From Pseudomonas fluorescens NCIMB 11764 (GTDB taxonomy: Bacteria; Pseudomonadota; Gammaproteobacteria; Pseudomonadales; Pseudomonadaceae), in assembly GCF_000293885.2 (NCBI RefSeq), contig NZ_CP010945.1, positions 5,538,001 through 5,602,000 on the forward strand: a DNA stretch of 64,000 nucleotides, written 5' to 3'. The position numbers were made by a program, and so were the translations under genes. The notes under the pieces were generated by a model that saw only the letters and a list, made by a program, of their open reading frames with translations, did no database searches and was not told the origin of the DNA. This document shows positions 2,202 to 63,250 of the stretch, one piece after another (position 1 is the first letter of the stretch; every line of letters starts with the position of its first letter).

Positions 2202-4178
2202 TCAGGCGTTGTGTTTGCAGCAACTGGCCGGCTGACCGTCCTGGACACTGGCGTGGTCCCTGCTCGCCGGCAAGTCCATGGCCGGGTTGCCGTTGAAGAA
2301 GTTATTGGGCTTGAGTTTGAACCCGACGTATTCCACCGGCATCACCGGGAAATCCTCCGGTTTGCAGATGTGGGTATGGCCAAAGGTGTGCCATACCACC
2401 AGATCCTGGTTCTGGATCTCGCGGTTGTTCTGCGTGTACAGCGGGAGGCCGTCACCCCGATGCTGGTTGGGGTAATCGCCGGAGCCGTAACGCTCGCCGG
2501 GCGCGTAAGGCGTCACCCACAGGTGCTTGCTGGCAAACCCTGCACGTCGACCAAACGAGCTGTCGGGTTGGGCGAGCATGACCGGATTGTGCTCGGCCAT
2601 CAGCTTGTAGCCGGGGTGATTGCCGACGGCGTTCTTGACGTTCGGATTGATGATTTTCCAGAAGCGCCCGGTCTGGCCGTTGGCCTCACGGGCGGCGTCC
2701 AGCTCATGGGTAAACGTGGTGGTCACACTGTCGAAGACGTTGCCCCAGGTATTTCCCTCGCCTTGCGGGCGCGACTGGAAATTGGTTTCGGTCACAGAGT
2801 TGTGCTCGCCATCCACCATCATGTGCAAACGCGCACTGAAAAAATGCTGGTGGGTCGGGCCATAGAACTCGGGCGTGACCATGCCGCCCCCGCTGGCGGG
2901 GCGTTGACCGGGAGCCAACGCGGCGGTCTGGATGATCCCGGTCAGCTTGGCTTCGAGTTGAATCGTACCGTCCTGATAGAGGTACCAGAAAAACCCGTAG
3001 TCGTAGTTGGCCACGGTGCAGAAGAAGCTGATCACCAGGCGCCGGGAGCGACGCATTTCGAACACACCGGTACGAAACTCATAGTGTTTCCACAACGTGC
3101 CGTAATCTTCCTCGTGCATGCAGATAGCGTTCTTCATGACAAAAGGTTCGCCCTGATCATTGACCGAAGGCACATCGAAATAACGAATCGCCCCCAGGCA
3201 ATCACAGCCCAGCTCCAGTTGGTTGGCCAGACGACCGAGCCCGTATTCGCCGCCATCGAACGCGCATTTCCAGTAATGATTGAGCTCGTTGTCCGAATAG
3301 GGAACGCCCATGTCGGTGACACTGGCGCGATAGAGGATCGGGCGCACGACGTCACCGTCCTTGTAGCCCAGTTGGTGCAGAACCAGACCTTCGCGCGGCG
3401 TGAAGCCGACGCGGAACTCCCAGTTCTGCCAACTCACTTTCCAGTCATCGACGGTGAAGCTCACGCCCTCGGGCTGCGTGATGTGCAACGGTTTGAGTCC
3501 GTCACGCGGCTGGCCCAGGGACGCGGAATCGTAGTTGATCGTGGCTTTGGGAATCGGCGTCAGACGACCGTCGTCCAACAGCTCGATGACCTCGCCTTTG
3601 TTCAGGTCGATGATAGCAACCAGTCCTTCGATCGGGTGGGCGTAACCGTTGTCGGTCAGCTTGTCACGGTAGAACGCGACACCGCGCATCAACCGCTTGC
3701 CCTGATAACGTTCATCATCGCCGAAATGCCCGAATGACCAGGGATCGATCTGTACGTTTTCAATATCGGCATCGGTGAGGCCCCGGCGCTTGACAGCCGC
3801 ACGCCACGCGGGGTCGTTTTGCACAGCTTCCACGCACAGGTCGAACTCCTCAATCATGATCGGTGCATGACCCTGGGTTTCAATGTCGACCGCTTGCCAA
3901 TCGACAAGGGTTTGGCTGTTCAAATCAACCAGCGCTTCGAAGGTGTTGCCCGTCAATTTGTCCAGCACCAAGGCAAATGCACGCCTGGAAAATGCCTGGT
4001 CTGGCACATGGGCCAATACCTCACGCTTATCCGGCTCGGCGAGATGCAGGTACGGGAAGCGGCATTTGTCGTGAAGGTTTTTTTCCCGTTTCAGGATGCT
4101 GCTCGCCAAAGCAAGCTCCTCTAGCGAAAGCGGGTCAAGCGGGTGGGTCGCGGTGGTTATTTTAAGATTAACGTTCAT
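2202..4178 (-). CDS. Copper-containing primary amine oxidase (TPQ type)
   Basis: Oxidises primary amines (phenethylamine, tyramine or similar) to aldehydes, releasing ammonia and hydrogen peroxide. The 658-residue protein has the T-x-x-N-Y-D cofactor motif (TVANYDYGFFWY, Tyr near residue 391) that self-processes to topaquinone, the copper-binding H-x-H in GPTHQHFFSARL, and the C-terminal WHTFGHTH...EDFPVMP region carrying the third histidine. The length fits the non-secreted bacterial enzymes (about 640 residues), and no signal peptide is seen. The start at 4178 has GGAAGAG 8 bases upstream; the longer frame from 4223 lacks one. Neighbours are a CtaG-like protein downstream and an amino-acid/amine permease and SDR upstream, which together suggest uptake and stepwise oxidation of an amine. 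The exact substrate cannot be read from sequence. Confidence 0.93.
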   Translation of the reverse strand: MNVNLKITTATHPLDPLSLEELALASSILKREKNLHDKCRFPYLHLAEPDKREVLAHVPDQAFSRRAFALVLDKLTGNTFEALVDLNSQTLVDWQAVDIETQGHAPIMIEEFDLCVEAVQNDPAWRAAVKRRGLTDADIENVQIDPWSFGHFGDDERYQGKRLMRGVAFYRDKLTDNGYAHPIEGLVAIIDLNKGEVIELLDDGRLTPIPKATINYDSASLGQPRDGLKPLHITQPEGVSFTVDDWKVSWQNWEFRVGFTPREGLVLHQLGYKDGDVVRPILYRASVTDMGVPYSDNELNHYWKCAFDGGEYGLGRLANQLELGCDCLGAIRYFDVPSVNDQGEPFVMKNAICMHEEDYGTLWKHYEFRTGVFEMRRSRRLVISFFCTVANYDYGFFWYLYQDGTIQLEAKLTGIIQTAALAPGQRPASGGGMVTPEFYGPTHQHFFSARLHMMVDGEHNSVTETNFQSRPQGEGNTWGNVFDSVTTTFTHELDAAREANGQTGRFWKIINPNVKNAVGNHPGYKLMAEHNPVMLAQPDSSFGRRAGFASKHLWVTPYAPGERYGSGDYPNQHRGDGLPLYTQNNREIQNQDLVVWHTFGHTHICKPEDFPVMPVEYVGFKLKPNNFFNGNPAMDLPASRDHASVQDGQPASCCKHNA

Positions 4179-4524
4179 GCTTCGTACTCTTCCAGTCAAA
4201 TGTACTTTTGGGTTTAAAGGCATTCAGACGATGAAGAAACTGCAGCACTGCGGTAAGTCGGCCTATAAAGACTACGACCAACTACCGCAGGCGCATTAAC
4301 ACAAATTGGCAGAAACATAGCGGGCACTCGCCAAACTAAAAGAGCTGGCATGTTTCTGGCTTTTTAATCGCTCAAGGCACAGCGGATAAATGATCCGGCA
4401 ACGCTGCGGTCAGGTCGGCAACCCTCCTGCGCGTTCCAGTTATCCAGACTTTAGTCATCACTTCGCACTATCAAAGAGCAACCTGCACTAATGCGGTGCT
4501 TACAGCGTCCGACGGACTGTTGAA
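4179..4524. promoter_or_regulatory. Amine oxidase upstream region with an inverted repeat
   Basis: 346 bp without a credible gene between the permease stop and the amine oxidase start. It holds an inverted repeat, CAGAAACAT (4310-4318) and ATGTTTCTG (4350-4358), separated by 31 bp, which could bind one of the flanking AraC regulators. The promoter itself could not be assigned by eye; no convincing -24/-12 sigma-54 element was found. Confidence 0.35.
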
Positions 4525-5931
4525 TTAATTGTTCTTTGAACGGCCTTTAATCACGCCGTAAAAGAACAGCACCACCAGAAGTAATGGCGTTCCGTTCACC
4601 CAAGCGGATTCACTGCCGGTCAGCAGCCCGTAGTTCTCATAGATCAAGTAAACCGCCACGCTAAGCCCCGCCAGTGCAACCAGTGGGCTGACCAAGACTT
4701 TGAGATACTTGCGAGAGCTGACTTTCTTGAAATGGGCAACCACTGCCAGCGAAATGAATGCCTGAAGCCCGATGAGCCCAATCGTTCCCAAAGCCAGCGT
4801 CACCGGGAAAAGGAAGACAAACGCGTCGTAACCCAGCGACGATGGGACGGCGATGCAGACAGCAACCACCACCGTTACTAGAAGGCTCGCATTGGCCGGG
4901 GAGTTTTTTTGCGGATGAATGTTCGATAGCACACGCGGCAAATGTTTATCTTTGGCCAGCACATGCACGTAGCGAGTGGCCGCGTTGTGCAGCGACAACA
5001 AACAGGCAAAATTGCTGGTGCACAGCATGATCGAAACAAGGGTGGCCGTTGTGCCTCCCAGGCGTGTCGAGAACAGGTTGATGATCAGTTCGCCTTGCGC
5101 CGATGCCGCTTCGCCCTTGATCGCTTCTACCCCGATGCCACCTACAATCAGCCAGATAATCACAAAGTAAGCGACAGCCACCAAGGCTACTGCGAGACGC
5201 GTGGCACCCGGAATGGATTTTTCCGGCCGCTTGGCTTCCATCGCATACAGCGCTGCGGACTCGACACCGAGGAACGCTGCCAGCGCGACCATCATTCCGA
5301 CCCCGAGGCCGGGCGACGTTATTGCATCAATCGATACCGCTTCAACTGGAAACGCAGCGAGGCCTTTATCCATGAAAATGGAGATACCGAGCAGAAACAG
5401 CATGAAGAACTCAGCAAGCACCAATGGCACCAGGATCTTCGCGGCAAAATCAATGTTCGCCCGGCCGAGATAAGATGTCAGCGCCATGAGCAACAATGTC
5501 CATGACGTCCAGCCAATATCCACGCCAAATGTTTGCAAGGTCAAATTGGTGTAGTAGCCCGACACAATGGCCAGGGCAATGGTAATTGCCAGGTAGGACG
5601 CCAATGCTACCCATGCCGCGCCCGCGCCAACTCGCGGGCCAAACACCACCGATAGATACTTGTAAAACGCGCCTGCACCCGGGATCGCGCGAATTAACTC
5701 GCCATAGCCGACCGAGAAACAAACCATCAAGAATCCGGCCACCAAAAATGTTCCGGCCAGCCCCGGACCGTTGCCGAGTTGAAAGCCGATGGGCGCGGCT
5801 GTGAGAACAGCGCCCAAAGGTGCGGCGGCGGCAATCACCAACAATGCGATCTGATAAGTACCCAGGTTGCCCTTCAGCTTTTCACTGACTATAGGCGCCT
5901 CTTCATGCAGGGATTCGGTTAGCTCTGTCAT
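4525..5931 (-). CDS. APC superfamily amino acid/amine permease
   Basis: Secondary transporter of about 468 residues with roughly 12 hydrophobic segments. The first segment carries the APC-type glycine-rich stretch (AAAAPLGAVLTAAPIGF), and GELIRAIPGAGAFYKYLS matches the family's second/third helix signature. The ATG at 5931 has GGAG 8 bases upstream. Placement between an amine oxidase and an SDR points to import of the amine or amino acid consumed by this cluster; this is inference from context. It might equally be an ethanolamine or aromatic amine permease. Confidence 0.85.
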   Translation of the reverse strand: MTELTESLHEEAPIVSEKLKGNLGTYQIALLVIAAAAPLGAVLTAAPIGFQLGNGPGLAGTFLVAGFLMVCFSVGYGELIRAIPGAGAFYKYLSVVFGPRVGAGAAWVALASYLAITIALAIVSGYYTNLTLQTFGVDIGWTSWTLLLMALTSYLGRANIDFAAKILVPLVLAEFFMLFLLGISIFMDKGLAAFPVEAVSIDAITSPGLGVGMMVALAAFLGVESAALYAMEAKRPEKSIPGATRLAVALVAVAYFVIIWLIVGGIGVEAIKGEAASAQGELIINLFSTRLGGTTATLVSIMLCTSNFACLLSLHNAATRYVHVLAKDKHLPRVLSNIHPQKNSPANASLLVTVVVAVCIAVPSSLGYDAFVFLFPVTLALGTIGLIGLQAFISLAVVAHFKKVSSRKYLKVLVSPLVALAGLSVAVYLIYENYGLLTGSESAWVNGTPLLLVVLFFYGVIKGRSKNN

Positions 5932-53975: not shown

Positions 53976-54032
53976 GTGCGGTGATGATTACCAGCTGCCG
54001 TAGGGGATGCCGAATTGTTCGACGTAGCGTTT
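53949..54032. repeat. Duplication block L (84 bp), partner 56061-56144
   Basis: These 84 bp, from inside the terminator hairpin to codon positions near the lipoprotein C-terminus, recur exactly at 56061-56144. Beyond them the two lipoprotein genes diverge clearly. This is one anchor of the roughly 2.1-kb tandem duplication. Confidence 0.85.
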
Positions 54033-54644
54033 CGCCTTTTCACTGACTGGATAGGCGTACTGCCCCTGACTTTTTCCTTGGTCTGGGCCCAACGGTTCTA
54101 TTTCTGCTTGAGCATGAGCGACCTTGATTGCCTTCATACATTTGTCCGCGACCCACACCTGAACGACGCCCCCCGGCGCTACACCGACATACACCAGCGC
54201 GACATTGCCTGCTGGTTCATCCGGCGTTGAAGGACAAGGCTCATTCAGCGTATCGCGCATGATTTGTCGGGCTTGCTCTGGAATGTCGACCCAGGCGCGG
54301 TACGTTTGTGGCTCCACGATGGACTGCCAACGGACGAAGATTCGTTTCGGTAAGTCTGCACCGACAACTTCGCGAATCCCCCCCGTAATCTCACCCCACC
54401 CTCTTGCGGACTCCGTACCATTTTCTGGCTCGCCCCCCGCTGCCGTACCGCCACCCGTGCGACGGAACAATTTGCCGTTAACGTCTTCGACCGCACTGTC
54501 TTCAACCCAGGCTTTCATGTAATACGGTTCGTTGAAACTGAGGCTCCACCATTTTCTGGTGAGCTCCGTTTCGGGCGTTGCGAGATTTGTGGCCTGGCAG
54601 CCAGAAACCAGTAACAGTCCTACAAGCAATCCCAACAAACGCAT
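53988..54644 (-). CDS. DUF2931-like lipoprotein, probable immunity protein (copy 1)
   Basis: 218 residues with lipoprotein signal MRLLGLLVGLLLVSGC. The mature part includes WWSLSFNEPYYMKAWVEDSA, DLPKRIFVRWQSIVEPQTYR and the C-terminal RYVEQFGIPYGSW. It is a clear paralogue of 56100-56756. Periplasmic lipoproteins of this sort sit next to Tle-type phospholipase effectors and neutralise them; that role is inferred from the neighbour. Its ATG overlaps the truncated effector's stop (TAATG), so the pair is coupled. Confidence 0.85.
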   Translation of the reverse strand: MRLLGLLVGLLLVSGCQATNLATPETELTRKWWSLSFNEPYYMKAWVEDSAVEDVNGKLFRRTGGGTAAGGEPENGTESARGWGEITGGIREVVGADLPKRIFVRWQSIVEPQTYRAWVDIPEQARQIMRDTLNEPCPSTPDEPAGNVALVYVGVAPGGVVQVWVADKCMKAIKVAHAQAEIEPLGPDQGKSQGQYAYPVSEKAKRYVEQFGIPYGSW

Positions 54645-56176
54645 TAAAATGTTCTCCAGCTTGAATCCGGTACATGAGGGTGACGTACGCGCACACCACT
54701 TTCGGTCGGTGCATTCGTGTAGCGGAGATTCACCCCGCGCTCACGAGTCGATCCCACTGGATTGCTCCAATTGGCAGACATATGGATGTAGCGCAATCTG
54801 AGCAGTTTCTCCTCCGCAGGCATAACCTGGTAATTGCCCCCGAGGAACCTGTCGCAGAGTGGTTGAAGCTCTGATGGAACGGAATACTGAGAGGTTTTCG
54901 GAACATCCTTGAACTGCACCCCCTTCTCCTTGGCCAGTTTATGCATCAAGTGCAGATACACCACTGACAGCTTCCCACTAACCGGACGCTTGAGTTGCAA
55001 ACCTGCGTACACCCGCACCTGCCTGAACCCGGATGTCTGCTCTTCCCTCGACAATGAACTCGGTTTCGGAGTCACGATTTCCAGCATTGCTTCTGGCCAG
55101 CCATTGGCGACCCAACTCGCTTTCTGCTGCTGGGCATCACGATAAATCGAAGTGGTTTGAATGTCGGTTCCCTGTCGCACCGTCATGGCCTGCATTGGGC
55201 TGACCAGTACGCACTCTTCCACTTCCTCTCGATAACCTCCACCGATATCCGAATGCACACCGGGAACGGGTATTTCCGTATGCGCGGGAATGACTGTGCT
55301 TAACGCAAAGTTGGCCCGATGCTCGTCCCGCGCAGTCAATTGAATGACATCGGTAAAGTACTTGCGGTCAAGGTACAGTTTGATCCCCGGTGCTACCGGA
55401 CTTTGGATGTTACCTATGTTTGTGACCCCCGCGACCGAGGGCACGGTATCGAACAGGCCGATGAACCCCATGATGATTTCGCTGTTGTACCGGGCATCGA
55501 AACTGGAGCTGAACCCCTTGGGGTTGCTGCGGAGCACTTCGCCCAGAGGCCCTAGTTTGCAACGTACGATTTCATTGGCGAAATGTCGGGCAGCGGCGGC
55601 GCCTCGACTGAACCCGAAGGTGTCGAATGTGAGCGATGTAATCTCACCGTCAGGATTGCGATCGATTGCTTCCTTGATCAGTGCTTTCATGGCGACAAAC
55701 GCTTTTTGTACCTTCCCCGCTACGCCTGCGTCTCCTCGCCCGGTCGCCGCGGCACCCATGCTGTCTTCAGCGCCCGCATCGGTGCCGATCCCGTCTACGT
55801 AGAGACTGCGCTGTACGAGTTTGGATGACGCATCGTTTCCGGCTACTTCCGCTGTCGGATAGAGCTCATACAGCTTGAAAACATTACTCACATCATTCCC
55901 ATAACTCCCCTCCGGATCCGCCATATACGGCTTGCAGCTCGCATCGACGTCTTCCGGGCGAATCGGGTGATGGGCGCCGCACAATAATCCTGACGCAGAG
56001 TTACCCGCATTGTTCAGCGTTCCGTCAAAGAACACGCCAATGCGCAACGCAACTCTGAATGCGCCTTGATAGGCGCCCGTTTTTTTTGTGCGGTGATGAT
56101 TACCAGCTGCCGTAGGGGATGCCGAATTGTTCGACGTAGCGTTTGGACTCGTCGGACAACGGGTAATAGTTGCCAC
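54644..56176 (-). CDS. N-terminally truncated DUF2235 (Tle1-like) lipase, orphan effector copy
   Basis: The native sequence begins at about base 56058 (RVALRIGVFFDGTLNN) and keeps the whole catalytic core: GxSxG in TFGFSRGAAAARHF, and VHSDIGGGY. Roughly the first 43 residues of the intact copy (56756-58306) are missing. They are replaced by 39 residues read out of frame through the end of the second lipoprotein gene and its broken terminator, opening with a GTG at 56176 that has GGAAAATCC upstream. It may be silent or make an undelivered toxin. Followed directly by its own lipoprotein gene. Confidence 0.82.
   Translation of the reverse strand: MATITRCPTSPNATSNNSASPTAAGNHHRTKKTGAYQGAFRVALRIGVFFDGTLNNAGNSASGLLCGAHHPIRPEDVDASCKPYMADPEGSYGNDVSNVFKLYELYPTAEVAGNDASSKLVQRSLYVDGIGTDAGAEDSMGAAATGRGDAGVAGKVQKAFVAMKALIKEAIDRNPDGEITSLTFDTFGFSRGAAAARHFANEIVRCKLGPLGEVLRSNPKGFSSSFDARYNSEIIMGFIGLFDTVPSVAGVTNIGNIQSPVAPGIKLYLDRKYFTDVIQLTARDEHRANFALSTVIPAHTEIPVPGVHSDIGGGYREEVEECVLVSPMQAMTVRQGTDIQTTSIYRDAQQQKASWVANGWPEAMLEIVTPKPSSLSREEQTSGFRQVRVYAGLQLKRPVSGKLSVVYLHLMHKLAKEKGVQFKDVPKTSQYSVPSELQPLCDRFLGGNYQVMPAEEKLLRLRYIHMSANWSNPVGSTRERGVNLRYTNAPTESGVRVRHPHVPDSSWRTF
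55892..56058. repeat. Duplication block R (167 bp), partner 58010-58176
   Basis: An exact 167-bp match between the truncated and intact effector genes, covering residues around RVALRIGVFFDGTLNN. Immediately left of it the genes differ at many positions. The abrupt right edge at 56058 is the duplication junction. Confidence 0.85.
56061..56144. repeat. Duplication block L, second copy, with broken terminator
   Basis: Exact repeat of 53949-54032. The left arm of the terminator hairpin is cut at the junction, so on the minus strand only a 5-bp stem without a T tract remains. Transcripts from the intact module could therefore run into the truncated module. Confidence 0.8.
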
Positions 56177-56756
56177 CGGATTTTCCGAGGTGGGGTCCCA
56201 AGGGTTCTATTTCTGCTTGGGCACGAGCAACCTTGACTGACTTCAAGCATTTATCAGTCACCCACACCTGTACGATGCCGCCGGGGGCAAGTCCGAGGTA
56301 AACCATGGTTATGTAGTTGGCTGGCTCGTCGGGCGTCGCCGGGCATCGCTCATTGACCGAGGCGTGCATGATCTGCCGTGCTTCTTCGGGTATATCGACC
56401 CACCCACGATAGGTCTTCGACTCGACAACCGACTGCCATCGGACAAAGATGCGTTTCGGTAGATCTGCTCCAACTACGCCACGGATGCCGCTGCTTATAT
56501 ATTTACTCCAGCCACGAGCTGCTTCGGTACCGTCCTCGGAGTCATGGCTACCTGCTGTGCCTCCACCCGTTCGATTAAACCGCTTGCCGTTGATGTCTTC
56601 TACGGCAGAGTCTTCCACCCATACCTTCATGTAGGCGGGCTCAACGAAGCTGAGGCTCCACCATTGATCTTTAGGGTCGTTTTCGCTGGAAAGTGGGTCG
56701 GCTGCCTGACATCCGGCTACAAAAAACGCGCCCAGTAATATTAGGATCGAGCGCAT
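56100..56756 (-). CDS. DUF2931-like lipoprotein, probable immunity protein (copy 2)
   Basis: 218 residues; signal MRSILILLGAFFVAGC, then WWSLSFVEPAYMKVWVEDSA, DLPKRIFVRWQSVVESKTYR and the same terminal RYVEQFGIPYGSW as copy 1. Directly downstream of the intact effector, with its ATG overlapping that gene's stop (TAATG). Expected to protect the periplasm from the cognate lipase; the diverged middle of copies 1 and 2 suggests each matches its own partner. Confidence 0.86.
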   Translation of the reverse strand: MRSILILLGAFFVAGCQAADPLSSENDPKDQWWSLSFVEPAYMKVWVEDSAVEDINGKRFNRTGGGTAGSHDSEDGTEAARGWSKYISSGIRGVVGADLPKRIFVRWQSVVESKTYRGWVDIPEEARQIMHASVNERCPATPDEPANYITMVYLGLAPGGIVQVWVTDKCLKSVKVARAQAEIEPLGPHLGKSGGNYYPLSDESKRYVEQFGIPYGSW

Positions 56757-58306
56757 TAAAACGTTCTCCAGTTAGAGTCAGATACATGAGGATGTCGCAC
56801 CCGAATGCCATCGTCAGTGGGTGCATTGGTGTAACGAACAGTCACGCCGCGTTCGCGGCTAGCGCCAATAGGATTATTCCAATTGGCAGAAGTATGAATG
56901 TATTTGAGTTTCAATAGCTTTTCTTCACCGGGATCAAGTTGGTAATTCCCGGCGAGGATCTTGGCGCAAATTGGTTGAAGCTCAGAAGGTAAACTGTACG
57001 CGGGATCGTTCTCATCAAGCGCTTCAAACTGAACGCCGTTCTCTTTAGCCAATTTGTACATCAAGCGTAAATACACCAACGATAGTTTGCCGCTGACTGC
57101 GCGCTTGAGTTGCACTCCTGCATACACCCGTAGTTCCTTTGGTCCTAACCTCCGCTGCTCATTGTCATGTGCCAATGTTGGCTTTGGAGTGATCACATCC
57201 AGCATCGTCTCAGGCCAACCGTCGGCGACCATTTTTGCTTTTTTCTGTATTGCATCCCGGTAGATGGATGTAGTTTTGACATCGGTACCATTGGGGACCG
57301 TGAGTGCCTGCATAGGGCTGACCAGCACGCACTCCTCCACTTCCTCACGGTAACCACCGCCAATATCGGAGTGCACCCCTGGTACCGGGATTTCAGTATG
57401 CGCAGGAATCACTGTGCTCAACGCAAAATTGGCACGGCGTTCGTCACGGGCGGTAATTTGAACGACATCGGTAAAGTATTTGCGGTCCAGGTAAAGCTTG
57501 ATTCCAGGAGCGACTGGACTCTGGATATTCCCAAGATTGGTGAATCCCGCGACAGAAGGAACAGTATCAAACAGACCGATGAAGCCCATCAGAATTTCGC
57601 TGTTGTACTGACCTGTAAAGCTGGCGCTAAAACCATTGGGACTGCTACGCAACACCTCTCCCAGTGGCCCCTGCTGGCAGCGCACGACCTCATTTGCAAA
57701 ATGCCTGGCCGCCGCAGCTCCTCGACTGAAACCAAACGTATCGAAGGTTAGCGAAGTGATTTCACCGCAGGGGTTTTGATCGACGACTTGTTTGATCAGG
57801 ACTTTCAGCCGAGAAAATGCGTTTTGGACCTTACTCGCGACACCCGTTTCACCCCGTCCGGTGGCGGCATTACCAAAGCTGTCTTTGCTCCCGCTTTCCG
57901 TACCGATGCCGTCGATGTACAGACTTCGCAACGCCAGTGTAGGCGTGCCTTCCCCCTTCACATCTTTGTTGGCTGGGTACAGTTCATACAGTCTGAAAAC
58001 ATTACTCAAATCATTCCCATAACTCCCCTCCGGATCCGCCATATACGGCTTGCAGCTCGCATCGACGTCTTCCGGGCGAATCGGGTGATGGGCGCCGCAC
58101 AATAATCCTGACGCAGAGTTACCCGCATTGTTCAGCGTTCCGTCAAAGAACACGCCAATGCGCAACGCAACTCTGACTTTTTCCTTCGCCGTCGCCGGTG
58201 CCTTGCCGTATTTCTCATACTCGGCCCAGCGCTTGGCGTGGATGTCGACGGGTTTGGCTTCGTCGTAGCGGAAGTTTTTCGGGGGGTTGGGTACGTATCC
58301 ACTCAT
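56756..58306 (-). CDS. DUF2235 Tle1-like lipase, probable type VI secretion effector
   Basis: 516 residues from ATG 58306 (MSGYVPNPPKNFRYDEAKP), which has AGGTGATCAAGGA upstream; the frame is open 37 codons further. Domain DUF2235 shows IGVFFDGTLNNAGNSASG, the nucleophile serine in TFGFSRGAAAARHF (Ser near residue 194), and the catalytic region PGVHSDIGGGYREEVEE. Relatives are phospholipases injected by type VI secretion. No VgrG, PAAR or other secretion gene is visible in the window. Paired with the lipoprotein at 56100. Confidence 0.88.
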   Translation of the reverse strand: MSGYVPNPPKNFRYDEAKPVDIHAKRWAEYEKYGKAPATAKEKVRVALRIGVFFDGTLNNAGNSASGLLCGAHHPIRPEDVDASCKPYMADPEGSYGNDLSNVFRLYELYPANKDVKGEGTPTLALRSLYIDGIGTESGSKDSFGNAATGRGETGVASKVQNAFSRLKVLIKQVVDQNPCGEITSLTFDTFGFSRGAAAARHFANEVVRCQQGPLGEVLRSSPNGFSASFTGQYNSEILMGFIGLFDTVPSVAGFTNLGNIQSPVAPGIKLYLDRKYFTDVVQITARDERRANFALSTVIPAHTEIPVPGVHSDIGGGYREEVEECVLVSPMQALTVPNGTDVKTTSIYRDAIQKKAKMVADGWPETMLDVITPKPTLAHDNEQRRLGPKELRVYAGVQLKRAVSGKLSLVYLRLMYKLAKENGVQFEALDENDPAYSLPSELQPICAKILAGNYQLDPGEEKLLKLKYIHTSANWNNPIGASRERGVTVRYTNAPTDDGIRVRHPHVSDSNWRTF

Positions 58307-58435
58307 TCCTTGATCACCTGGCTCCTTGGTGCAACGGGCGCTGAGGGTGCCACTGTGGATCCAATCAAGCAACGCGTAGCCAGGTGCCATCACTCGGACG
58401 ACATGGGCCTCGTCCATCTATTGGTTTCGTCAATG

Positions 58436-58524
58436 GTCACCATTAATTCAATGAAGTTCTCTTAAAAATTCTGCGGCGTAACATCGCCTCCATACCAAAC
58501 AACTACACCCCGGAGCACACACTC
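58436..58524 (+). promoter_or_regulatory. Conserved leader of the 13-residue repeat gene A
   Basis: About 89 bp nearly identical to 62624-62712 upstream of gene B, including TCAATGAAGTTCTC, GCGGCGTAACATC and CAACTACACCCCGGAGCACA. It contains the ribosome site GGAG and, by position, the promoter (TAACAT as a possible -10). Confidence 0.65.
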
Positions 58525-58965
58525 ATGAAACGCCAAATCCTTCTCAGCATCGCTTTCTCGGTTTTTGCAGTTAACGCTTTCGCCGCTTCTTCTGCTCACC
58601 CGGTTGTCGCTGAAGGCGGCTCGGATCGTCTGATTGAAAGCCGTGTGGCTGAGGGTGGTTCGGATCGTCTGATCGAAAACCGCGTCGCCGAAGGAGGTTC
58701 CGACCGCCTGATCGAAAACCGCGTTGCCGAAGGTGGTTCCGACCGCCTGATCGAAAACCGCGTCGCCGAAGGTGGTTCCGACCGCCTGATCGAAAACCGC
58801 GTCGCCGAAGGTGGTTCCGACCGCCTGATCGAAAACCGCGTTGCCGAAGGTGGTTCTGACCGTCTGATCGAAAACCGCGTTGCCGAAGGTGGTTCCGACC
58901 GCCTGATCGAAAACCGCGTCGCCGAAGGTGGTTCCGACCGCCTGATCGAAAGCCGCGCTGTATGA
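58525..58965 (+). CDS. Secreted tandem-repeat protein A, nine 13-residue repeats
   Basis: 146 residues: a Sec signal peptide (MKRQILLSIAFSVFAVNAFA), a short S-S-A-H-P-V linker, nine copies of V-A-E-G-G-S-D-R-L-I-E-N-R (first and last with E-S-R) and the end A-V. Nothing else is present. Repeats differ in DNA only at silent positions. No enzymatic domain or family is recognised. The uninterrupted frame on the opposite strand is a shadow of the repeats. Has a paralogue at 62713 with ten repeats. Possible roles are a structural periplasmic protein, a repeat ligand or a precursor of a 13-residue peptide; none is supported beyond sequence. Confidence 0.85.
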   Translation: MKRQILLSIAFSVFAVNAFAASSAHPVVAEGGSDRLIESRVAEGGSDRLIENRVAEGGSDRLIENRVAEGGSDRLIENRVAEGGSDRLIENRVAEGGSDRLIENRVAEGGSDRLIENRVAEGGSDRLIENRVAEGGSDRLIESRAV

Positions 58966-58992
58966 ATGAATAGCCTTAACGCAGTACTCGAC

Positions 58993-59023
58993 AAAAAGCC
59001 CGGCCTGATCAGCCGGGCTTTTT
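58993..59023 (+). terminator. Rho-independent terminator of repeat gene A
   Basis: AAAAAGCCCGGC, loop CTGATCA, GCCGGGCTTTTT. The same hairpin, with a different loop, ends gene B. Confidence 0.9.
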
Positions 59024-59393
59024 CTTGCTCAAAATAAATGAATGTCCTTCATTGAGGTGAAGCCGCAACACGCCTCTCGCGTATCGCGCCAGCCCGATCT
59101 TGATGCCGACCAGGATGGGCCCGGCGCGCTGCGACGTTAACGATAACGCCTGCTGAATGAACGCGCTGTGAACCTCCATCGCTGGCAAGCCAGCTCCCAC
59201 AGCGGATTTTTAGCGAGCATGACATGGGTGTTCACCGCCGATGACCTACTGTCGTCCGGTTGATTCGGGCTGGTGCCCACACATTCTTTCTCGGAGAAGT
59301 GCGAACCTTCAGATACTGTTCGTCTGCCGAGCCGAATTCGCCACCGGGTCACTGGTCACACCGGAATCAGCGTCAACCGCTCCGGAGATTCCC
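59024..59393. other. Gene-free interval containing a REP-like element
   Basis: 370 bp without a credible gene. At 59176-59202 lies CATCGCTGGCAAGCCAGCTC continuing CCACAG, the sequence of a widespread Pseudomonas REP-type palindrome (GCTGGC-AA-GCCAGC). The right part holds the promoter of the cupin gene. Confidence 0.65.
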
Positions 59394-59945
59394 ATGGCAC
59401 GTTCGCATTCCCTCCCCGCCCCCGCGCAACCCCTGTTGCTCGAAGCCAACGACTGGGTGCCCAACAATCCGCGCCTGCCGCTACTCATTTACCCCAAGGC
59501 CATTGCCGTCCAGGGCAACGATCCGGCGGCGCTGTTCGAGAAAACGTTCAAGGCCAATGGCTGGCCACCGCAATGGCGTTACGGGGTCTACGACTTTCAC
59601 CACTATCACACCGAAGGCCATGAAGTGCTTGGCATCGCCAGCGGTCATGCGCGTTTGATGCTGGGCGGTCCGGACGGTCATGTACTGGAAGTCAGTGCGG
59701 GTGATGTGGTGCTGCTGCCAGCGGGCACGGGCCACTGCAACCTGGGTTCAAGCGACGATTTTCTGGTAGTCGGTGCCTACCCGCCCGGGCAGCACGCCGA
59801 TATTTGCCGCGAGGCACCGAGTGCCGAGCAACAGGCAAGCATCAACACGCTGCCGTTTCCCGAGCGCGATCCGGTGCAGGGCGAGGATGGTGCGGTCGGC
59901 CAGCATTGGGTCAGCCAGCATTGGGTCAGCCAGCATCAGCCATGA
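59394..59945 (+). CDS. Cupin-domain protein with C-terminal short repeat
   Basis: 183 residues from ATG 59394 (CGGAGATTCCC upstream). The single cupin has RYGVYDFHHYHTEGHEVLGI with the metal-ligand pattern H-x-H...E, and GDVVLLPAGTGHCNLGSSDD as the second motif. The C-terminus ends in tandem W-V-S-Q-H units arising from a 15-bp DNA repeat (about 59903-59938). It resembles YjlB-type cupins of unknown substrate. Convergent with the MHS transporter, 42 bp between. Confidence 0.85.
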   Translation: MARSHSLPAPAQPLLLEANDWVPNNPRLPLLIYPKAIAVQGNDPAALFEKTFKANGWPPQWRYGVYDFHHYHTEGHEVLGIASGHARLMLGGPDGHVLEVSAGDVVLLPAGTGHCNLGSSDDFLVVGAYPPGQHADICREAPSAEQQASINTLPFPERDPVQGEDGAVGQHWVSQHWVSQHQP

Positions 59946-59987
59946 CAACCTCGCCCTCTCCCCCGCGAGAGAGGGCGAACGCCAGCC

Positions 59988-61661
59988 CTAGGTGTGATGA
60001 ATTTCCCGATCCTTGGTTTCCGGCAGGAAGAACGTACCGAGTATTGCAGTCAACACCGCAATGACAATCGGGTACCACAACCCGTAGTAGATATCCCCCG
60101 TGGCCGCGACCATGGCAAATGCCACCGTCGGCAGGAAGCCGCCAAACCAACCGTTGCCTATGTGGTACGGCAGCGACATCGAGGTGTAACGGATGCGCGC
60201 CGGGAAGAGTTCCACCAGCCACGCAGCGATCGGACCGTAGACCATGGTCACGTAGATCACCAGGATAGTCAGCAGTAACAACACCATCGGGTAATTGGTC
60301 TTGGCCGGGTCAGCCTTCTCGGGGTAACCGGCGTCCTTGAGGGCAGTGCCGAGGGTGGCGGTGAAGGCGTCGTTGCGGGTCTTGAAGTCGGCGGCCGGCA
60401 TGCCGGTGCCTTCGAAGCTCGGGATCACTTTGTCGCCGATACGAACCTGGGCGACTGCGCCCGGCTCAGCCTTCACGTTTTTATAGGGAATGGCCCGCTT
60501 CGCCAGCACCGTTTTGGCGAGGTCGCAGGAACTGGTGAATCTGGCTTTACCCACCGGGTCGAACTGGAACGAGCACTGGTCCGGATCAGCGACCACCGTG
60601 ACCGGATTCTTCTCCTGGGCGATGAACACGTCAGGGTTACCGTACTGGGTCAACGCGTGGAAGATCGGGAAGTAGGTCACCGCCGCCAGGATGCAGCCCG
60701 CCATGATGATGCCCTTGCGACCGATGCGGTCGGACAGGCTGCCGAATATCACGAAAAACGGCGTGCCGATCAGCAGGGAGCCGGCAATCAGCAAGTTGGC
60801 GGTCTGCGCGTCGATCTTCAGGGTCTGCAGCAGGAAGAACAGCGCGTAGAACTGCCCGGTGTACCAGACGACGGCCTGGCCAGCCGTACCGCCGAGCAAA
60901 GCCATGATCACAATCTTCAGGTTTTCCCAGCGAGCGAAGGATTCCGTCAGCGGCGCCTTGGACGCCTTGCCCTCAGCCTTCATCTTCAAGAACACCGGCG
61001 ACTCACTGAGTTGCAGGCGGATGTACACCGAGACGATCAGCAACAGGATCGACAGCAGGAACGGAATCCGCCAGCCCCAGGCCTCGAAGGCTTCAGTGCC
61101 GAGAATCGTGCGGCAGGCGAGGATCACCAGCAGCGACAGGAACAGACCGAGGGTCGCGGTGGTTTGTATCCACGAGGTGAAATAACCGCGCCGCCCCTTC
61201 GGCGCATGCTCGGCCACGTAGGTCGCCGCCCCGCCGTATTCACCGCCCAGGGCCAGGCCTTGCAGCAGGCGCAGGGTAATCAGGATGATCGGTGCCGCCA
61301 CGCCGATGGTCGCGTAGCCCGGCAGAAAACCGACGATGGCAGTGGAGACACCCATGATGACAATGGTGATCAGGAAGGTGTGCTTGCGCCCGATCATGTC
61401 GCCCAGTCGGCCGAACACAATCGCGCCGAAGGGCCGCACGGCAAACCCCGCCGCGAACGCGAGCAGCGCGAAGATGAAGGACGTGGTCTCGTTGACGCCG
61501 GCGAAAAAGTGCTTGGCGATGATCGCCGCGAGGGAACCGTAAAGGTAGAAGTCGTACCATTCGAACACAGTGCCCAGGGACGAGGCGAAGATGACTTTGC
61601 GCTCCTCCCTGGTGATCCCGTGGTTGGGCACGTTGCCCGTGGTGGTGTCGATTGCGGCCAT
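59988..61661 (-). CDS. MHS-type MFS metabolite:H+ symporter with large inserted loop
   Basis: 557 residues with 12 membrane segments in the MHS layout: SLGTVFEWYDFYLYGSLAAI, the A-loop motif GRLGDMIGRKHTF and LRLLQGLALGGEYGGAATYV. A soluble insert of about 115 residues (from near residue 345, with NPDVFIAQEKNPVTVVADPD and two cysteines) separates helices in the second half; ordinary MHS proteins are about 430 residues. Members carry carboxylates, proline/betaine or shikimate. ATG 61661 chosen over the longer frame. Confidence 0.9.
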   Translation of the reverse strand: MAAIDTTTGNVPNHGITREERKVIFASSLGTVFEWYDFYLYGSLAAIIAKHFFAGVNETTSFIFALLAFAAGFAVRPFGAIVFGRLGDMIGRKHTFLITIVIMGVSTAIVGFLPGYATIGVAAPIILITLRLLQGLALGGEYGGAATYVAEHAPKGRRGYFTSWIQTTATLGLFLSLLVILACRTILGTEAFEAWGWRIPFLLSILLLIVSVYIRLQLSESPVFLKMKAEGKASKAPLTESFARWENLKIVIMALLGGTAGQAVVWYTGQFYALFFLLQTLKIDAQTANLLIAGSLLIGTPFFVIFGSLSDRIGRKGIIMAGCILAAVTYFPIFHALTQYGNPDVFIAQEKNPVTVVADPDQCSFQFDPVGKARFTSSCDLAKTVLAKRAIPYKNVKAEPGAVAQVRIGDKVIPSFEGTGMPAADFKTRNDAFTATLGTALKDAGYPEKADPAKTNYPMVLLLLTILVIYVTMVYGPIAAWLVELFPARIRYTSMSLPYHIGNGWFGGFLPTVAFAMVAATGDIYYGLWYPIVIAVLTAILGTFFLPETKDREIHHT

Positions 61662-61737
61662 GAGTCTTCTCCGTCTTGCTCTTGTTGTAGGCCGGAGCAC
61701 CTCACTACCATCGTCGTACCCAGGCCCTGGGCTGAAG

Positions 61738-62445
61738 TCATCGGATTACCGATTTCATGAAGCCTGGCAACAGGCTGACCGCCTCACATCGCTGCAAGGT
61801 TTCCTGAAGCATAATCACCTTCGCGCAGATATCCACTCGCCATCCGGCTTTGTCCGCTACCCGCCGCATCGCCTGCTCCAGCACGGCCAGCGCTTCCAGG
61901 GTGTCGGCACCCGGCGCGGGCTCGCCGGTTTTCAGATCCCACAGCAGCCAGGGTGTGCGGTCGATCAAGGCTTCGGCAAACAGCGCCGCCACATCCGGAT
62001 CGTCGGGAAAGGCTTTATAGACATCGCGCATCGACGCCGCGTAGGCATCGTTCCAGTCGAAAAGTTGTTCAACGCTGGCGGCCTCGTCAGCCTGATAGCG
62101 TTGCTCCAGCGCCCGGATCAGCGCCTGTTCCACCGGTTTTGCACCCTCGCCATGCGCAAGCGCGGCACGCGTCGCCAGCCGGGCCTGGGTGACGGCGTCT
62201 TTCAATTCCTGTTCGATAAACGCATCCCAGCGTTTGTTGTAATTGGGGCCGGAAGCATAGGCGATGCCCCAGTAGGCCATCGCGCAATCGTGGTCATGTT
62301 CGATCGCCTCGCGGAAACAGCGGATGGATTCGTCGTGGTTGTAGCCGTAGCACCATAACAATCCCCGGTCGAACCAGAGCTGAGCCTGTGGTGAACGGGT
62401 CGTTACGGGGCGGCTGTAAGTGCCCAAATCGTAATAGTCGTGCAT
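61738..62445 (-). pseudogene. 3'-truncated TPR protein
   Basis: 235 residues. The first ~200 follow a long TPR-rich protein (LWFDRGLLWCYGYNHDESIR, then REAIEHDHDCAMAYWGIAYA; TLEALAVLEQAMRRVADKAG). The family is normally about 550 residues, continuing with an H-P-G-x-x-H-x-Y-I-H-x-x-E region. Here the match breaks after ADKAGW and 35 unrelated residues lead to the stop, so over half of the protein is lost, probably through a deletion joining it to foreign sequence. Confidence 0.7.
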
Positions 62446-62623
62446 CGGTTTACCCTCTCGATCAGAGCCTGGAACCTCTCAGGAAACGCCTTGCCACGGT
62501 CTGATTTCCTGGAGACCGTCGATCGTTCAAGAGATCCAGCATACCCCGCAGGTTCTGCCCCAGCACTGCAACCGACGACAGGCTGGCGCAATGGAAGTCC
62601 GAGGACCATTGCCGACGTCGATA

Positions 62624-62712
62624 GTCACCATCAACTCAATGAAGTTCTCATAAAAAATCCGCGGCGTAACATCAGCTCCATACCCAACAACTACACCCCG
62701 GAGCACACCATC
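62624..62712 (+). promoter_or_regulatory. Conserved leader of repeat gene B
   Basis: Near-identical to 58436-58524. Differences are scattered substitutions without length change in most of the block, which is what one expects of a duplicated promoter under selection. Confidence 0.65.
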
Positions 62713-63192
62713 ATGAAACGCCAACTCTTCCTCAGCATCGCTTTCTCGGTTTTTGCAGTTAACGCTTTCGCCGCTTCTTCTGCTCACCCGGTTGTCGCTG
62801 AAGGCGGCTCGGATCGTCTGATTGAAAGCCGTGTGGCTGAGGGTGGTTCGGATCGTCTGATCGAAAACCGCGTGGCCGAAGGTGGCTCCGACCGCCTGAT
62901 CGAAAACCGCGTCGCCGAGGGTGGCTCCGATCGTCTGATCGAAAACCGCGTCGCCGAAGGTGGCTCCGACCGCCTGATCGAAAACCGCGTCGCCGAAGGT
63001 GGCTCCGACCGCCTTATCGAAAACCGCGTCGCCGAAGGTGGCTCCGACCGCCTGATCGAAAACCGCGTCGCCGAAGGTGGCTCCGACCGTCTGATCGAAA
63101 ACCGCGTGGCCGAAGGTGGCTCCGATCGTCTGATCGAAAACCGCGTGGCCGAAGGTGGTTCCGACCGTCTGATCGAAAGCCGCGCTGCATGA
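62713..63192 (+). CDS. Secreted tandem-repeat protein B, ten 13-residue repeats
   Basis: 159 residues: signal peptide MKRQLFLSIAFSVFAVNAFA, the same linker, ten V-A-E-G-G-S-D-R-L-I-E-N-R units (first and last ending E-S-R) and terminal A-A. The open frame extends upstream to 62440, but ATG 62713 matches gene A and has CCGGAG upstream. The first two repeats are identical in DNA to those of gene A. Interior repeats here use GGTGGC where gene A uses GGTGGT, so each array has homogenised separately. Function unknown. Confidence 0.85.
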   Translation: MKRQLFLSIAFSVFAVNAFAASSAHPVVAEGGSDRLIESRVAEGGSDRLIENRVAEGGSDRLIENRVAEGGSDRLIENRVAEGGSDRLIENRVAEGGSDRLIENRVAEGGSDRLIENRVAEGGSDRLIENRVAEGGSDRLIENRVAEGGSDRLIESRAA

Positions 63193-63219: not shown

Positions 63220-63250
63220 AAAAAGCCCGGCCTGACCCGCCGGGCTTTTT
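63220..63250 (+). terminator. Rho-independent terminator of repeat gene B
   Basis: AAAAAGCCCGGC, short loop, GCCGGGCTTTTT; same stem as at 58993-59023. Confidence 0.9.

Follow-up and report, generated by a model that had tools for sequence, protein, structure and literature searches.

A dispersed transcription cassette with a MexT-type box encodes a predicted exported 13-residue-repeat protein in Pseudomonas fluorescens NCIMB 11764

A 64,000 nt stretch of the Pseudomonas fluorescens NCIMB 11764 genome (contig NZ_CP010945.1, positions 5,538,001 to 5,602,000; hereafter the window) contains two genes that encode a signal peptide followed by tandem copies of a 13-residue unit. We find that these genes are two of four near-identical copies of a complete transcription cassette, which begins with a 24 bp sequence that fits a consensus for MexT, a redox-responsive LysR regulator. 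The best explanation as a whole is that of a portable, MexT-switched cassette for an exported repeat protein. We consider this explanation somewhat probable in its entirety, and the parts of it that concern family and regulation distinctly likely.

Gene 1 and gene 2 carry nine and ten contiguous units, respectively, with the consensus VAEGGSDRLIE(N/S)R. In both genes a predicted signal peptide (MKRQ...NAFA, about residues 1-20, assigned by eye) and the linker ASSAHPV precede the array, and a two-residue tail follows it. The first and last units end in ESR and the interior units in ENR. The original prediction had described a pair of genes made of a signal peptide and nothing but nine or ten exact copies of the unit. 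Two such genes are indeed present, apart from the ESR ends, the linker and the tail; they do not form a pair, but belong to a set of four dispersed cassette copies. The features of the two cassettes in the window are as follows.

58420..58443, + strand: MexT-type box of cassette 1, 12/15 consensus positions, -105 from the ATG
58444..58524, + strand: promoter and ribosome-binding region of cassette 1, common to all four cassettes (alignment of copies)
58525..58965, + strand: gene 1, signal peptide and 9 units of 13 residues (146 aa)
58606..58956, + strand: repeat array of gene 1, 9 contiguous 39 bp units (Tandem Repeats Finder, 9.0 copies)
58998..59023, + strand: hairpin resembling an intrinsic terminator, with a T run, at the end of cassette 1; kept among copies
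62608..62631, + strand: MexT-type box of cassette 2, 13/15 consensus positions, -105 from the ATG, the top-scoring site in the window
62632..62712, + strand: promoter and ribosome-binding region of cassette 2 (alignment of copies)
62713..63192, + strand: gene 2, signal peptide and 10 units of 13 residues (159 aa)
62794..63183, + strand: repeat array of gene 2, 10 contiguous 39 bp units (Tandem Repeats Finder, 10.0 copies)
63225..63250, + strand: hairpin resembling an intrinsic terminator, with a T run, at the end of cassette 2; kept among copies

The genome (one contig of 6,998,154 bases) yields seven matches. Four of them are the near-identical copies, whose arrays count 9, 10, 11 and 7 units, and the other three are more distant relatives (L005, L006 and L007). 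We aligned the four copies together with 400 bp of upstream and 300 bp of downstream sequence and computed the mean pairwise identity per 20 columns. Identity was 0.81-0.93 in the stretch between approximately the box and the ATG, 0.72-0.84 between the stop codon and the T run, and fell to a background of 0.08-0.54 outside the box-to-terminator span. The homologous DNA of the four copies extends from the 24 bp box, located some 105 bp upstream of the start codon, to the terminator. Because these limits of homology are the box and the terminator, the duplicated unit is the whole transcription unit, copied as a cassette. Terminator-like sites show no excess in the region over shuffled sequence (seven found versus 4.9 expected), and conservation in the four copies is the better evidence for the two listed. 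A sigma-70 scan, which is uninformative for an activator-dependent start, gave no promoter-like site at gene 1 or gene 2; its single site, at 60067, lies on the other strand.

The box was scored against ATCA-N5-GTCGAT-N4-ACYAT, taken here as the MexT consensus. The set comprised 33 genes, with one taken at each locus: the four copies in the NCIMB 11764 genome and others drawn from the best matches in the genus (for L044 a neighbouring copy was used). All 33 carry the box, with 15 of 15 positions in 11 genes, 14 in 11, 13 in seven and 12 in four, and its position is always -104 to -107. When each promoter was subjected to 200 mononucleotide shuffles, the best score was 11-12. A scan of the genome allowing up to two mismatches returned 51 sites, versus 5 for the reversed pattern, and three of the eight best sites (0-1 mismatch) precede family genes. 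The perfect sites are those of copies 3 and 4 and a locus termed L081; the relative L005 has one mismatch (14/15, at -109) and copy 2 has two, and copy 1, with three, falls outside the list. Within the window, box 2 (13) is the best of five sites that score at least 12/15. Across clades, box identity was 0.60 compared with 0.39 for the rest of the promoter and 0.33 for shuffled sequence (25 pairs, 5 by 5 genes), although this contrast is biased upward by the choice of boxes for consensus fit and the fixed position is firmer evidence. A CzcR motif was also compared by eye with the cassette promoter and did not fit. At L081 (1501-1524; genome position 5306495), the perfect box lies 109 bp before a small open reading frame (ORF) that resembles a membrane-protein gene and is followed by a second short ORF; these ORFs are possibly a further member of the regulon.

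A link to published regulation is provided by PA4881 of P. aeruginosa, which excerpts of the literature describe as a tandem repeat protein controlled by MexT, the redox-responsive regulator (PMC3557286). According to similarly partial texts, expression of PA4881 falls by log2 -6.5 without mexT, the largest drop in the excerpted mexT-deletion table (PMC12607905), is lost in parS and parR mutants (PMC3848899) and is induced by an enynone (PMC10848761). PA4881 is also listed among the most highly differentially expressed uncharacterised genes of a signature whose expression mostly rises in anr mutants (PMC5700673, in excerpt). Among 25 genomes of the aeruginosa/nitroreducens group, 13 carry a close ferritin-like gene and the remainder distant matches. 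A repeat gene is next downstream of the ferritin-like gene in 12 of these 13 loci; the other locus (L116), at a contig end, showed none. These 12 genes and that of genome G418, the first in line at their loci, all carry the box (13/13), with scores of 13-15 of 15 at -107 to -113. Genome G497 has a gene that is 96% identical to the PA14 PA4882 leader printed in an excerpt of PMC6085387. Between this PA4882-like gene and the ferritin-like gene lies a gene for a 113-residue repeat protein, with a box of 13/15 at -107, which by its position is PA4881.

Pairwise comparisons, all inflated by repeats, gave E values of 2e-7 for the window protein against the G497 protein at the PA4881 position, 7e-15 for the window protein against a relative in genome G390, 2e-25 for the G497 protein against the G390 relative, and a modest 2e-4 for L005 against the G497 protein. 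A divergent AsmA gene lies beside the repeat genes of L005 and L061, and at L062 the ferritin-like gene intervenes. The PA4881-type genes of L062 and L061 are each followed in tandem by another repeat gene of a different kind (4388-4882 and 3690-4217, respectively). Judged by signal peptide, sequence-related tandem repeats and a box about 105-113 bp before the start, the cassettes appear to belong to the PA4881-type family.

In three other genomes, the box with up to one mismatch occurs at 10 sites, versus 0 for the control. Two of these sites precede PA4881-type genes, and two perfect ones precede an ArsR-MFS-Oxidored_FMN operon whose layout is presumably that of PA4354-PA4356 (xenB). Another (L149) adjoins a LysR gene (Pfam) and a small lipoprotein-like ORF, presumably PA2758-PA2759. 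In excerpts of published work, xenB falls without mexT (log2 -2.4; PMC12607905), and PA4354 and PA4356 fall in parS/parR mutants (PMC3848899). The NCIMB 11764 genome itself has a mexE gene (equivalog, 751.6 versus a cut-off of 714) together with an RND permease gene; a LysR gene adjoins them, and a gene for a zinc-binding dehydrogenase (an oxidoreductase) is divergent. This order is that of mexS-mexT-mexEF, with mexF, mexT and mexS named by position. We found no text tying these cassettes to MexT in a literature search outside whose coverage subscription papers mostly lie, and in the excerpts at hand MexT control is in print for PA4881 only (PMC3557286, PMC12607905). The shared box and the tie to PA4881 suggest that MexT controls the four cassettes.

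Several points weigh against this assignment. The consensus is an assumed one, and the boxes at L028 and L030 score no higher than their best shuffle. The copies share ancestry, so the 33 boxes are not 33 independent tests. Box 1 is degenerate, being one of four window sites at 12/15, and the second tandem repeat gene of L062 scores 11/15. Six of the 51 genomic sites are copies of one repeated sequence, one of the three perfect sites (L081) precedes small ORFs unrelated to the family, and five of the 10 sites in other genomes (L145, L146, L148, L150 and L151) match no listed MexT target. In the NCIMB 11764 genome, the LysR gene is MexT by position only (0 of 25 NCBIfam models listed passes its cut-off), and the gap between mexT and mexE scores 11/15, no better than shuffles. 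Furthermore, excerpts of one report state that PA2206, another LysR protein, also binds the PA4881 promoter and that loss of PA4881 gives no peroxide phenotype (PMC3557286).

The peptide itself appears to be under selection. Units for codon statistics were placed by a peptide anchor, which in these gapless arrays missed none, and consecutive 13-mer reading from the first unit in the 33 closest genes recovered the same 314 units. Among the 15 interior units of genes 1 and 2, nine columns vary and all nine are third codon positions (hypergeometric P 3.4e-6); with all 19 units included, third positions account for 11 of 12 variable columns. The proportion of synonymous differences (pS) among interior units is 0.28 and 0.30 in genes 1 and 2, and that of nonsynonymous differences (pN) is 0 in each. 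The ratio pN/pS is 0.027 over the 37 units of the four cassettes and 0.115 over 248 interior units of the 33 closest genes. Copy 3 contains a non-silent change, an interior unit that ends in EKR. Because the peptide has stayed constant while silent sites diverged, recent copying alone fails to explain its identity. The claim of the original prediction that every interior difference is silent thus holds for genes 1 and 2, and its proposal of purifying selection on the peptide, with variable copy number, is supported. Unit number would vary through unequal recombination.

Relatives are found throughout the genus. Of 298 sampled Pseudomonas genomes, 283 (NCIMB 11764 included) have a match. The counts of one to 13 matches per genome are lower bounds, because no more than 13 candidates were scored in each. 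The statement of the original prediction that no known enzyme or adhesin family looks like this gives way to these relatives and to PA4881, in print as a tandem repeat protein (PMC3557286, in excerpt). An order-wide sample gave matches in 11 of 194 genomes, seven from the same family (NCIMB 11764 included) and four weak (E 8e-5 to 9e-4). A protein search scored 7,997 candidates and found 485 relatives, 120 of which are listed and form the basis of the following counts. Their 637 units were located with an anchor that constrains positions 3-8, and only the remaining positions give unbiased counts: Ala2 is present in 98%, Leu9 in 94%, Ile10 in 55%, Glu11 in 58%, Asn12 in 56% and Arg13 in 78.8%, and in some subfamilies the units end without Arg13. 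The period is 13 in 460 of 518 spacings, and 16 of the 120 proteins have Cys beyond residue 25. The 33 closest genes contribute 314 units, in which Gly5, Asp7 and Leu9 are constant, Ala2, Glu3 and Ser6 occur in 313, Gly4 and Arg13 in 312 and Arg8 in 300, and positions 10-12 vary.

Among the matches listed, those with a product name are called hypothetical or 'phage infection protein'. The latter name is the sole link to AL066_13550, which rises 32.4-fold with Rhizoctonia, and to C0J56_00080, and neither was used as evidence. Neither the string VAEGGSDRLIE nor four related strings were found in full-text literature, where subscription papers mostly lie outside coverage. One subfamily, comprising L006 and many homologues among P0046-P0120, has EGGSDR units and a strongly kept C-terminal EFGSKYQRY. 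The gene at L007 (1501-1968; about 6.48 Mb in the genome) has no NCBIfam match.

The four copies occupy different surroundings. Copy 1 is flanked by a Tle1-like gene and a cupin-like gene (whose Cupin_2 match falls just below cut-off), copy 2 by an ORF without a Pfam family and a chorismate mutase gene, and copy 3 by two cupin-like genes (one below and one above cut-off); the genes around copy 4 differ from those of the other copies. On the - strand at 53988-58417 of the window are two similar adjoining modules, each with a gene resembling those of Tle1-like type VI phospholipase effectors (54644-56176 and 56756-58417, the Pfam match being tested for the latter) and a small lipoprotein-like ORF (53988-54644 and 56100-56756). 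They look like a duplicated effector-partner module. A short 15 bp tandem repeat (59894-59936) marks the 3′ terminus of the cupin-like gene located between the two cassettes.

The mature gene 1 chain, with cleavage assumed after residue 20, contains no Cys, Met, Lys or aromatic residues and a single His. It has a net charge of -9, 14.3% Gly and a mean hydropathy (GRAVY) of -0.63, and by the charge-hydropathy boundary counts as disordered by a narrow margin (0.43 versus 0.439). The product is predicted to be exported and disordered. An AlphaFold model built with 42 sequences has a mean predicted local distance difference test (pLDDT) score of 43 and shows no element beyond the signal helix; the G390 relative was modelled as helical at low confidence. 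Repeat alignments make poor models, and both were too weak for a fold search. No Pfam family was matched at E 0.001, including any calcium-binding repeat, and an RTX-like repeat was rejected; no PDB sequence match was better than E 0.44.

We propose that genes 1 and 2 are copies of a self-contained cassette comprising a regulator box, a promoter, a signal peptide with 13-residue repeats, and a terminator. MexT, or a close LysR relative reading the same box, would switch the cassettes on under electrophile, disulfide or nitrosative stress. The product would enter the periplasm or pass beyond it as a flexible chain offering many copies of a short recognition unit with the core A-E-G-G-S-D-R-L. 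Unequal recombination would change the number of units, and duplication of whole cassettes would change dose. Our best guess for the product is an envelope protein that is flexible and multivalent, that is produced in response to electrophile/disulfide stress and whose repeats may act through multivalent binding or protection of envelope components. The flexible multivalent chain, although the most economical guess, is a tentative one. Equally speculative is the notion that Pseudomonas carries a portable, self-contained stress cassette for a novel type of exported protein. This protein would be an unfolded, multivalent chain of one strongly kept octapeptide core, acting in the thiol/electrophile response as an envelope protectant or decoy of tunable dose; repeat number would tune the chain and cassette number the dose.

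Other roles for the repeats can be envisaged. A protease cutting after Arg at unit borders, trypsin-like in the original prediction, would release identical 13-mers for signalling or antimicrobial use, and the identical units, the Arg residues at positions 8 and 13, the signal peptide and the lack of any other domain all suit such a precursor, as does the near-constancy of Arg13 in the 33 closest genes. Across the broader set of homologues, however, Arg13 is less well kept and some subfamily units lack it at their end. By eye, no dedicated protease or exporter gene was seen beside the copies, although no systematic search was made; an MFS transporter gene lies between the window cassettes, and a gene for a hydrolase with a weak peptidase S9 match is near copy 3. 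We regard a precursor as unlikely. A folded solenoid, or an adhesin-like array at the surface with a repetitive ligand, would account for the strict 13-residue period and the constant Gly5, Asp7 and Leu9, but the AlphaFold model and the lack of Pfam and PDB matches speak against it. The solenoid of the original prediction is therefore not supported by the model, although a failed model of a repeat protein is weak evidence and no disproof, and we rate such a fold as improbable.

The cassettes might also encode a periplasmic copper/zinc stress protein of the PtrA kind, with repeats that are multiplied PtrA N-terminal motifs. Excerpted literature describes PtrA as a copper-tolerance protein of the periplasm that copper and zinc induce, and on whose gene CopRS and CzcRS act in P. 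aeruginosa. The NCBIfam model NF041599 (PtrA N-terminal domain) scores the two window proteins at 83.4 and 89.9 against a cut-off of 31. However, this score is summed over repeats and no single stretch passes alone; the best covers 25 of the 46 model positions (6-30). Without a continuous match over most of these positions, the genes were not assigned to PtrA. The mature gene 1 chain, with no Cys, Met or Lys and one His, also fits poorly, and the box is absent from three PtrA-proper genes of the genome (9/15 each). We consider a PtrA-like role rather doubtful. Seven genes at 0.21 Mb and 1.06-1.10 Mb of the genome (L008-L014) match the PtrA model nearly full length and above cut-off. The 'PtrA' of the In5 paper, as excerpted, is a P. 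chlororaphis LysR regulator and a different protein. Least plausible is a cassette that is selfish or derived from phage and serves no function in the cell. In some records the protein bears the name 'phage infection protein', the copies occupy unrelated gaps and match counts differ among genomes. Against this, matches number 0 among 50,697 phage records and 1 among 72,556 plasmid records, PHROG matches are weak and of unknown function, purifying selection is strong and the box is kept.

If the proposal of a MexT-switched cassette is correct, an envelope-side product of the electrophile/disulfide response would be revealed. PA4881, uncharacterised yet showing the largest drop in the excerpted mexT-deletion table, is now tied to a genus-wide family, and the box, unit and cassette are defined in testable form.

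The cassette protein can be compared with several known systems. Hydrophilins are defined by a Gly content above 6% and hydrophilicity above 1. The cassette protein shares the high Gly content, hydrophilic nature and stress context of these and LEA-like proteins, but its GRAVY value falls short of the hydrophilicity threshold. PtrA (PA2808, NF041599) likewise has a signal peptide followed by AEGGxDR, although the PtrA-type proteins of the NCIMB 11764 genome, unlike the cassettes, have a single motif directly after the signal peptide and a different remainder. Two distant relatives in the same genome, exported as judged from leaders seen by eye, share the G-x-D core: L007 consists of SDGADHVGAGKLA-type 13-residue units but has no box (10/15) and another leader and end, and L006 has a similar period but no box (8/15), another leader and the end EFGSKYQRY. 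PA4881-type proteins have units of about 23 residues in G497 (about four units) and 18 in the G390 relative, in contrast to the exact 13-mer of the cassettes, yet they share with them the signal peptide, the short tandem repeats and a motif, A-x-N-G-S, that resembles the A-E-G-G-S of the cassette unit.

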